From Rhizobium sp. NXC24 (GTDB taxonomy: Bacteria; Pseudomonadota; Alphaproteobacteria; Rhizobiales; Rhizobiaceae), in NCBI RefSeq assembly GCF_002944315.1, contig NZ_CP024311.1:4098446-4162445 (forward strand): a stretch of DNA of 64,000 nucleotides, given 5' to 3'. Made by a program: the position numbers and the translations under genes. A model generated the notes under the pieces. The model was not told where the DNA came from and did not search any database. It saw only the letters and a program-made list of their open reading frames with translations. Shown here in pieces: positions 2,767 through 4,758 of this stretch; the stretch's first letter is position 1; every line of letters starts with the position of its first letter.

Positions 2767-3384
2767 GTGCTGAAAGAAGAGATCGATTACCGCTATCTGC
2801 GCATGCCGCATGCCGAACGCGGCATGGTAGTCGGTCTTTTCGGCGGTTCCTTCAATCCGCCGCATCAGGGCCATGCGCTGGTGGCTGAAATCGCCATCCG
2901 ACGGCTTGGCCTCGACCAACTCTGGTGGATGGTGACGCCTGGCAATCCGTTGAAGAACCGCAATCATCTGGCGCCGCTTGCCGAGCGCATCGCGCTCAGC
3001 GAGGCGGTCACGCATGACCCGCGCGTCAAGGTGACAGCTTTCGAGCAGACGCTCGGCATGAGCTACACGGCCAATACGCTCGCCTACGTCAAGGCGCGCA
3101 ATACCCATGTTCATTTCATCTGGGTCATGGGTGCGGATAGCCTCAACACGTTTCACCGCTGGCAGAAATGGCAGGAGATTGCCCGCACCTTTCCGATCGC
3201 CGTCATCGACCGGCCGGGATCGACGCTATCCTATCTCTCCGCGAAGATGGCCAAGACGTTTCACTATGCGCGCGTCGACGAGGATGACGCACGGGTATTG
3301 TGGAAAAAACCGGCTCCGGCCTGGACCTTCATTCACGGTCGGCGCTCGACATTGAGCTCAACCGCCTTGCGCGCAGCACAATGA
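2767..3384 (+). CDS. nadD: Nicotinate-nucleotide adenylyltransferase
   Basis: NadD adenylates nicotinate mononucleotide to deamido-NAD, the central step of NAD synthesis. The nucleotidyltransferase signature GGSFNPPHQGH lies about 20 residues in. WVMGADSLNTFHRWQKW and the C-terminal RRSTLSSTALR (the family ISST-type motif) support the call. No ATG precedes the conserved core closely, so I placed the start at GTG 2767, one base after the proA stop. The ATGs at 2803 and 2824 are alternatives, the second of which sits only a few residues before the core. Product about 205 residues. In related genomes nadD is commonly followed by rsfS; here the mod genes intervene. Confidence 0.93.
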   Translation: MLKEEIDYRYLRMPHAERGMVVGLFGGSFNPPHQGHALVAEIAIRRLGLDQLWWMVTPGNPLKNRNHLAPLAERIALSEAVTHDPRVKVTAFEQTLGMSYTANTLAYVKARNTHVHFIWVMGADSLNTFHRWQKWQEIARTFPIAVIDRPGSTLSYLSAKMAKTFHYARVDEDDARVLWKKPAPAWTFIHGRRSTLSSTALRAAQ

Positions 3385-3430: not shown

Positions 3431-3560
3431 ATGAAAAAGCCCGACGGGGGAGGAGATCCGTCGGGCTTTCAAACCTGATCAGCAACTGGGAGGAGGAGTG
3501 TTGCTGATCGATATCGAAAGGCTTTGGGAGGAGGAGATCGCCGTTTCGATGATTATGTTT
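3431..3560 (-). ncRNA. Anti-Shine-Dalgarno small RNA (alpha-r14 / cuckoo-like), three CUCCUCCC hairpins
   Basis: Read on the minus strand this stretch forms three hairpins in a row. Hairpin 1 pairs 3540-3550 with 3513-3522 (one bulge). Hairpin 2 pairs 3500-3509 with 3477-3486 (10 bp, perfect). Hairpin 3 pairs 3458-3469 with 3436-3447 (12 bp, perfect) and is followed by five T in the transcript, a typical intrinsic terminator. All three loops show CTCCTCCC, which can pair with Shine-Dalgarno sequences. Known rhizobial small RNAs of the alpha-r14 (cuckoo) group have this layout. The T-run exists only on the minus side, which sets the strand. The exact 5' end is unknown and I see only weak promoter-like bases upstream. 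The locus is convergent with nadD, whose transcripts may also stop at hairpin 3. Confidence 0.85.
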
Positions 3561-3960
3561 TAGCAGATTTGACCAAATGATAAAACGCTGATAGCGCAAT
3601 GCAGCAATGCATTTTCATCGTGGCTCCGAAAACAATCTGCCCAAAAAACGCTTCTTTTACATGATCTGAGCTAATTGCGTCGCGGCTTCCGGCGCGACCT
3701 TCTCCAAAATCTCCCTAAAATCGCACGATTCGTAACGTTACGTCTCATCCCGTGAGCGTTCGCCATCCTTTTGGGCGTATTCAGCCATGCATTTATGCAA
3801 TGGCAGGGCGTTCTTGTATGCGCCCCGGGGGCAAATCCCTATAAAATTCGTAGAGTTACGCTCCGCCGTAACGCTATATTTTCTGGAACATATCCCCTAG
3901 CCAAGCATCGTCGGCCGTTATATCTGTCCAGATATGTCGATATCTTCCAGGAGAAATAGA
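3561..3960. other. Gene-free control region upstream of modA with paired CGTAAC/GTTACG palindromes
   Basis: No convincing gene lies here; the short open frame at 3771-3959 has no support. The stretch holds a perfect 12-base palindrome CGTAACGTTACG at 3731-3742. A second inverted repeat, GTTACG (3855-3860) and CGTAAC (3867-3872) around a six-base loop, uses the same half-sites in the opposite order. It is followed at once by CGCTATATT (3872-3880), which could be a -10 region, and then by the ModE-like operator listed separately. The repeated half-sites suggest a regulator of the mod operon, which is inference. Confidence 0.5.
3916..3939 (+). promoter_or_regulatory. Candidate ModE operator upstream of modA
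   Basis: An imperfect inverted repeat has the half-sites CGTTATATCT (3916-3925) and AGATATGTCG (3930-3939) around GTCC, with 8 of 10 positions symmetric. Known ModE sites are built on CGnTATAT-type half-sites around a short spacer, and the position just before the modA ribosome binding site fits repression by molybdate-loaded ModE. A modE-like gene ends the cluster at 6625-7017. Binding is inferred from similarity and position only. Confidence 0.5.
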
Positions 3961-4758
3961 ATGGCCACGCGCCGCCGCCAATGGATCAAGCTTGCAACCG
4001 CCGCCCTTTCCGCCGCCTGGCTCGGCGTGTCGGTCATTCCGACGCCGGCATTCGCCGCCGACAAGATCACCGTCTTTGCCGCCGCCAGCATGAAAAACGC
4101 CCTGGATAATATCGACGCTGCCTTTACCAAGGAAACCGGAAAGCAAGTCACCGTCTCCTATGCGGCAAGCGGACCGCTGGCCAAGCAGCTCGAAAACGGG
4201 GCGCCGGCCGATGTCTTCATTTCCGCCGATACCGACTGGATGGACTATGCCGCCAAGAAAAAGTTGATCAAGGACGACAGCCGCGTCAACCTGCTGGGCA
4301 ATCAGATCGTTCTCGTCTCCGCCAAGGACAAGGCCAAACCCGTCGACGTCAAGCAGGGCATGGACCTTGCCGGCCTTCTCGGCGACGGACGCCTAGCGAT
4401 CGGCCAGCCGGAATCGGTGCCGGCGGGCAAATACGGCAAAGCAGCGCTGGAAAAGCTCGGCATCTGGTCTTCCGTCGAGAAGAAGGTCGCCGGCGCTGAA
4501 AGCGTGCGCGCCGCGCTTGCGCTCGTTTCACGCGGCGAAGCGCCCTATGGCATCGTCTACAAGACCGACGTTTCCGCCGATCCGGGCGTTGCCGTGGTCG
4601 GCACCTTTCCGGAAGACAGCCATCCGCCGATCATCTATCCGATCGCGATCACGGCCAGCAGCACCAACCCTGATACACAGGCCTATGTCGATTATCTGAA
4701 ATCGGCTAAGGCTGTTCCGTTCTTCGAGCACGAAGGCTTCACGGTTCTCAAGAAGTGA
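3961..4758 (+). CDS. modA: Molybdate ABC transporter substrate-binding protein
   Basis: ModA captures molybdate (and tungstate) in the periplasm and delivers it to ModBC. The 265-residue product opens with a signal peptide: a basic start MATRRRQ, a hydrophobic core, and a likely cleavage after PAFA near residue 32. The mature part begins with ITVFAAASMKNALDNI, the conserved oxyanion-binding start of the family, and continues with YAASGPLAKQLENGAPADVF, which carries further ligand loops. The ATG at 3961 follows CCAGGAGAA; an in-frame ATG at 3934 lacks such a site. modB follows after a gap of about 90 bases. Confidence 0.96.
   Translation: MATRRRQWIKLATAALSAAWLGVSVIPTPAFAADKITVFAAASMKNALDNIDAAFTKETGKQVTVSYAASGPLAKQLENGAPADVFISADTDWMDYAAKKKLIKDDSRVNLLGNQIVLVSAKDKAKPVDVKQGMDLAGLLGDGRLAIGQPESVPAGKYGKAALEKLGIWSSVEKKVAGAESVRAALALVSRGEAPYGIVYKTDVSADPGVAVVGTFPEDSHPPIIYPIAITASSTNPDTQAYVDYLKSAKAVPFFEHEGFTVLKK

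Follow-up and report, generated by a model that had tools for sequence, protein, structure and literature searches.

The founder of the alphar14 family of small RNAs (sRNAs) is NfeR1 (Smr14C2 or SmelC397) of Sinorhizobium meliloti, a multicopy RNA of approximately 123 nt that has three anti-Shine-Dalgarno (aSD) hairpins, an LsrB-type box upstream and predicted targets that are mostly ABC transporters (PMC10746234, PMC7143759). NfeR1 is activated by LsrB and uses its three aSD motifs, which are redundant in reporter assays, to repress SMc03121, SMb20442 and ntrB; an identical nine-mer, CCUCCUCCC, in all three loops is given as a trait of alphar14 RNAs (PMC10746234). Expression under nitrogen stress and independence from Hfq are further traits of NfeR1. 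Only one of the six NfeR1 loci of S. meliloti is reliably detected by Northern blot (PMC7143759). The cuckoo family (Reinkensmeier and Giegerich 2015, via PMC4504443) is described by two to four hairpins in which the loop motif, but not the helices, is conserved. Related features are also present in AbcR1 and AbcR2 (alphar15), which share the aSD1 loop CUCCUCCC and ABC transporter targets, AbcR1 being LsrB-dependent; these RNAs have one such loop together with UUCCCCUC, interact with Hfq and are encoded beside lsrB (PMC8844928).

The window analyzed here, namely the whole stretch of 64,000 nt from Rhizobium sp. NXC24, contains next to nadD an RNA gene that is a member of this known sRNA family, a chromosomal alphar14 (NfeR1/cuckoo) paralogue. 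It resembles NfeR1 in its length, its three aSD hairpins, its occurrence in several copies, its LsrB-type upstream box and its predicted targets, mostly ABC transporters, but lies beside nadD, has a shorter loop 3 and carries the upstream box in the form TGCA-N5-GCAT instead of TGCA-N6-GCAT. Compared by description with the cuckoo family, it presents no difference that we could find. We consider it probable that this RNA is a trans-acting sRNA of the NfeR1 type, which would cover ribosome-binding sites, mainly those of ABC-transporter solute-binding genes. The observations behind this view are its family membership, structure, conservation and upstream box, as well as the over-representation of solute-binding genes among the perfect complements of its loops.

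Identity and Genomic Context of the RNA Gene

The earlier note on this DNA, made from the sequence alone, had placed an RNA of alpha-r14/cuckoo layout at 3431-3560 beside nadD. A cmscan search places the match to Rfam family RF02344 (ar14) at 3554-3432 of the minus strand, at a score of 109.6 bits (gathering score 58.8) and over the full length of the model (positions 1-123), so that the proposed extent was right within a few bases and the proposed family is supported; the adjacent gene is indeed nadD (table 1). With respect to the Rfam consensus, the alignment flags three base pairs of helix 1 as non-standard, and the C that precedes CUCCUCCC in loop 3 is a U in the nadD-side copy. No family other than ar14 reached its cut-off in the whole window.

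The last result bears on an assignment to the AbcR (alphar15) family or to the CcsR/CIN1 group, which we find scarcely credible. AbcR1 and AbcR2 also have a CUCCUCCC loop and act by silencing the mRNAs of ABC transporters (PMC8844928), and the cuckoo paper has been cited for CcsR-like sRNAs encoded beside DUF1127 genes (PMC10253847); yet at cut-off cmscan returns ar14 alone, three CUCCUCCC loops are present here instead of one combined with the UUCCCCUC motif, and nadD and modA directly flank the gene.

The stop codon of nadD, which is preceded by proB and proA (NCBIfam), lies 47 nt from the convergent RNA gene. A leader or riboswitch of a neighbouring gene was rejected because both nadD and modA are on the opposite strand. 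A coding gene was likewise rejected, since no open reading frame of at least 80 aa overlaps the stretch; one of the three frames is open over the 123 nt, but without ATG. A published account of the nadD-side copy, or of the four-hairpin form described below, was not found in a search that left most of the subscription literature uncovered and thus carries little weight.

Table 1. Coordinates of the RNA gene, its parts and its neighbours in the window
Feature	Position	Strand	Evidence
alphar14/cuckoo-type small RNA gene (RF02344), ~123 nt	3432..3554	-	cmscan, fold, covariation
Hairpin 1, loop motif CTCCTCCTCCC at 3536-3526	3513..3550	-	fold; 11-mer in 81/81 rows
Hairpin 2, loop motif CTCCTCCTCCC at 3498-3488	3477..3509	-	fold; 11-mer in 78/81 rows, ATCCTCCTCCC in 3
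Hairpin 3, intrinsic terminator, loop motif TCTCCTCCCC, 8-mer at 3455-3448	3435..3470	-	fold
Possible weak -10 element TAAAAC	3557..3562	-	inference
Conserved upstream box TGCATTGCTGCATTGCG	3595..3611	-	3610-3598 part fits LsrB consensus GCAT-N3-TG-N3-T
nadD, convergent neighbour	2803..3384	+	NF000845 365.8 bits
modA, divergent neighbour on the other side	3961..4758	+	NF007958 289.2 bits, TIGR01256 213.6 bits

Structure and Conservation of the Hairpins

The motif CTCCTCCC has three minus-strand copies, at 3533-3526, 3495-3488 and 3455-3448. Its number in the window is not unusual (four matches on both strands; shuffled sequences have a mean of 2.5, and at least four in 23 of 100 cases), but three of the four matches cluster within 86 nt on the same strand. 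The predicted fold, a series of three hairpins, has -48.4 kcal/mol, compared with -24.9 +/- 3.2 for shuffled sequences (z -7.29), none of 200 shuffles folding as well, and the aSD core CUCCUCCC is unpaired in all three loops, as is characteristic of alphar14 RNAs. The sequence of loop 3 is TCTCCTCCCCC (3456-3446). Hairpin 3 is GC-rich and followed by TTTTT, thereby reading as an intrinsic terminator; a simple terminator scan missed it because the scan takes loops of 3-8 nt and the loop here has 10. Two further statements of the earlier note, that three minus-strand stems each present CTCCTCCC in the loop and that the last is an intrinsic terminator, are thus confirmed, the latter by reading of the sequence.

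An alignment of 81 rows, 71 of which are distinct, was used to evaluate covariation. In the three helices, 92.9% of the cells are paired; changes on both sides of a pair, which involve nine pairs, are found in 106 cells, compared with 35.6 +/- 8.5 for shuffles and no more than 31 for slid controls. Further pair types do not exceed the shuffles (27 vs. 27.4), and the kinship of the rows can by itself produce an excess over shuffles. The mean column entropies are 0.000, 0.021 and 0.090 for loops 1-3, 0.396, 0.319 and 0.259 for the corresponding stems (one base of stem 2 being counted with stem 1, hence 21 + 19 bases instead of 20 + 20), and 0.790 for unpaired positions elsewhere. The alphar14 pattern of variable stems with conserved loops is therefore seen in the column entropies, and again when the paralogues of the same genome are set side by side, a comparison that left out row L007. 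Fold and conservation together also correspond to the cuckoo definition.

Upstream Region

A block of 20 bases upstream of the RNA, AATGCATTGCTGCATTGCGC, shows a mean agreement of the rows with the window of 0.84-0.87, compared with 0.30 and 0.46 in the flanking bins. Within it, GCATTGCTGCATT matches perfectly the published LsrB consensus GCAT-N3-TG-N3-T (PMC8844928). The consensus is found in 79 of the 81 rows, 72-74 nt before loop 1, and in 0.7% of shuffled upstream stretches; the two remaining rows (L036 and L063) are one base off. By its sequence, the box is probably an activator site for the LysR-type regulator LsrB. When the 17-mer was searched in the same genome with up to two mismatches, six sites were obtained and none with the reversed control; two of the six precede alphar14 copies, namely the nadD-side copy and L004, and none lies before L001 or L003.

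The promoter looks weak, for the promoter scan gave no sigma-70 match upstream of the RNA and the alphaproteobacterial signature CTTAGAC-N17-CTATAT is absent there. An NtrC site of the NfeR1 type, TGC-N11-GCA, does not occur at -200 to -1 in the window, in which the nadD-side copy departs from NfeR1; the motif is present somewhere in the distal upstream part of 41 of the 81 rows.

The absence of a strong promoter at the nadD-side copy would fit a mostly silent paralogue, kept by selection for a terminator shared with the end of nadD while another alphar14 copy does the regulating. The convergent arrangement, the short distance from the nadD stop codon, the fact that the most variable loop is the terminator loop and the Northern blot result in S. 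meliloti, reliable for only one of six copies (PMC7143759), would agree with this as well. A terminator, however, needs neither the retention of CTCCTCCTCCC in hairpins 1 and 2 nor an activator-like box at fixed distance (table 1; 79 of 81 rows), and we thus regard a silent paralogue as unlikely in comparison with an active NfeR1-type sRNA.

Three minor observations were made in passing. A weak terminator-like site lies at 3597-3585 of the minus strand, between box and RNA, in a scan whose yield of such sites was at chance level (two sites found, 0.8 +/- 1.0 expected). A near copy of the box with two mismatches (L335; 41445-41461 of contig C1 of the same genome) stands shortly before a frame beginning with MIGLVLVTHGKLAEEF, which by eye is possibly a PTS EIIA gene. 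The genome also contains a ROSE RNA thermometer at L337:1150-1248 (RF00435, 71.8 bits).

Copies and Distribution

Four alphar14 copies are present in the genome of the window. The family was found in all 60 sampled genomes of the genus, including this one, with three to nine matches each; across the order, 199 genomes were searched, of which 63 gave a match at E 1e-3 and 29 one above the cut-off. A scan with NadD gave 486 encoding stretches in named records, and the RNA follows nadD in all of the best 80, which belong to Rhizobium or to records titled only Rhizobiales or Rhizobiaceae bacterium. Among these best 80 of 486 loci, CTCCTCCC is present in loops 1 and 2 of all and in loop 3 of 64. 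In a sample covering the family, NadD was matched in 79 of 81 genomes and 30 loci were fetched (the present one, one from the same genus and 28 from other genera); none of the 28 loci from other genera has an RNA match above the cut-off, and one of them (L243) has a single CTCCTCCC. Since the RNA accompanies nadD in 80 of 80 loci on the Rhizobium side and in 0 of 28 elsewhere, the nadD-linked copy appears to be a feature of Rhizobium, as far as sampled. Among named relatives, those closest to the window in the tree are Rhizobium sp. SEMIA4064 and R. leucaenae. The founder sRNA is known from one species; in the Rhizobium sampled, it is part of a gene family with one copy fixed beside nadD.

Other arrangements of alphar14 genes were encountered along the way. 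In another genus of the family (L159, L160 and L162), two or three copies stand in tandem within approximately 0.5 kb. A copy on contig C4 of the present genome (L003:1462-1623) has a fourth aSD hairpin at its 5' end, and when this type was used as query in 60 genomes of the genus, all of the best-scoring 30 loci, which were fetched (L339-L368), had four TCCTCC loops, with a fifth further down in L352. Covariation extends over the whole four-hairpin structure; of the cells in the additional helix 78% are paired, a shortfall due mostly to its lowest four pairs not holding, and the Rfam ar14 model spans only the last three hairpins. We considered these copies as a new form and rejected the idea, for the cuckoo definition already permits two to four hairpins (PMC4504443).

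Predicted Targets

The pattern GGGAGGAG-N2-10-ATG occurs 68 times in the genome, compared with 11 times when read backwards. Part of this excess is to be expected, GGAGG being the usual core of Shine-Dalgarno sites, and GAGGAGGG, a permuted word, is enriched as well (43 sites vs. 6 backwards). The 68 places amount to 66 distinct sites, which were all examined, and 42 of these start frames of 100 aa or more, some probably at internal starts, given that the matches of L149 and L263 are confined to the later portion of the respective Pfam profile. Solute-binding families were recognized by Pfam in 11 of the 42 frames (L130, L139, L152, L155, L248, L258, L261, L267, L269, L272 and L280). A phmmer search with these 11 proteins detected solute-binding proteins in six of 354 open reading frames from 20 background stretches, and in a like-for-like comparison leaving one query out the frequencies are 10/42 vs. 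6/354 (p = 3e-7). The background is only partly random, for it consists of 11 of 20 random stretches plus nine spaced stretches of C4 that replaced the other nine because the sites are rich on C4; one of the C4 stretches overlaps the site locus L258, which works against enrichment. The excess is seen on C4 alone (7/25 vs. 6/220, p 6e-5) and on C1 alone (4/16 vs. 0/117, p 1e-4). ABC ATPases are not enriched among the 42 frames (3/42 vs. 15/354, p = 0.30). A small control class, defined by AAGGAGGT, comprises 32 sites, of which 28 loci were examined and 13 have frames of at least 100 aa.

One candidate was followed through the genus. L130 (Peripla_BP_6) has a close relative (at least 89%) in 35 of 40 genomes searched, and in the best 30 loci fetched, its own included, the 8-mer precedes the start codon in every case. 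A solute-binding gene, SMc03121, is also a confirmed target of NfeR1 in S. meliloti (PMC10746234). A further difference from NfeR1 is that the ntrB gene of the present genome has no perfect 8-mer site, its duplexes with the loops amounting to -10.2 to -12.2 kcal/mol vs. -12.8 with the 16S tail; ntrB is therefore not supported as a target here, and, with the missing NtrC motif upstream in the window, neither is the NtrC branch of the NfeR1 circuit. The other site in the window, at 23182-23169 of the minus strand, opens only a 45-aa frame.

The loops of the RNA complement GGGAGGAG(GAG), and the 3' tail of 16S rRNA complements AAGGAGGTG; both pair with Shine-Dalgarno sites by a CCUCC core. Owing to this shared core, any GGAGG site gains some pairing, as illustrated by ntrB, and the RNA could in principle be a general competitor of the 16S tail that damps all strong Shine-Dalgarno mRNAs without a dedicated target set. 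The strong skew of the perfect complements towards solute-binding genes makes such a role very improbable, as does the stronger pairing of the sites with the loops, at means of -19.9 to -20.7 kcal/mol compared with -14.4 for the 16S tail, a comparison that is partly circular, the sites having been picked for the 8-mer.

The NfeR1-type mechanism that we favour would begin with LsrB-dependent transcription from the upstream box of the RNA itself. The product would be a 123-nt RNA with three exposed, single-stranded CUCCUCCC aSD loops that ends at the terminator hairpin. Its loops would pair with Shine-Dalgarno sites of the GGGAGGAG type in trans-encoded mRNAs, above all those of periplasmic solute-binding genes, and the translation of uptake proteins would consequently be stopped or lowered. 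For the nadD-side copy, transcription, LsrB binding, pairing and repression are predictions, as is an unequal function of the loops. The pairing with ribosome-binding sites suggested in the earlier note is supported, in that it has been demonstrated for NfeR1 (PMC10746234) and fits our target survey. The 42 frames with perfect sites provide concrete candidates for the targets of such an RNA in rhizobial nutrient uptake.

The longer complement GGGAGGAGGAG, an 11-mer that corresponds to loops 1 and 2, was rejected as a genome-wide target word: it has 12 sites, seven of which lie inside sRNA genes, compared with eight backwards. Separately, an ABC ATPase gene (L132) and a GFO/IDH/MocA oxidoreductase gene (L251) carry the full GGGAGGAGGAG just before the start codon.

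Differences among the Three Loops

It had been proposed that the loops may be unequal, and sequence conservation agrees: the nine-mer CCTCCTCCC is present in loops 1 and 2 of all 81 rows and in loop 3 of 32, whereas reporter assays of NfeR1 indicate redundancy. Even the 8-mer CTCCTCCC is absent from loop 3 in 16 of the 81 rows. Between fixed stem ends, 65 rows have a loop 3 of 12 or 13 nt, and the remaining 16 have one of 10 nt (GATCCTCCCC). The alphar14 description of an identical nine-mer in all three loops holds for loops 1 and 2 of the nadD-side copy but not for loop 3, which reads UCUCCUCCC; this is a departure from the description, the Rfam cut-off resting elsewhere and the covariance match lying far above it.

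To place these states on a tree we used nadD together with the 1200 bases before it. The short loop 3 requires eight changes on this tree, at least six of them by well-supported branches, and it is clustered, since shuffles need 14.8 changes; from the count, gain and loss are indistinguishable. Duplex calculations on the 42 sites give mean energies of -20.7 kcal/mol for loop 1, -19.9 for loop 2, -19.9 for loop 3 of the window and -16.2 for the short loop, which accordingly costs approximately 3.7 kcal/mol. The loop 3 of the window retains the full 8-mer and, by the same calculation, pairs as well as the other loops.

In the nadD-linked group it thus seems, from the pattern of conservation, that loops 1 and 2 bear the main constraint while loop 3, which doubles as the terminator, varies. 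A stronger reading, which we advance tentatively and with some reservation, is that the loops are not interchangeable: the first two would be the working antisense sites, and the loop tied to the terminator may have repeatedly changed its length, losing or regaining the full motif. If the loops were so ranked, the dose of antisense sites would be determined by how many loops work in each molecule and how many copies (3-9) a genome has, two copies in the present genome falling under an LsrB-type box. The conservation pattern leads to a direct test of whether the antisense loops are redundant, as in the reporter assays, or ranked, as in the sequences.

A last, minor observation regards the base that follows the sites: an A stands directly after GGGAGGAG in 10 of the 11 solute-binding genes, compared with 11 of the 31 other frames, and GGGAGGAG extended by this A would pair with UCUCCUCCC of loop 3 in the window.
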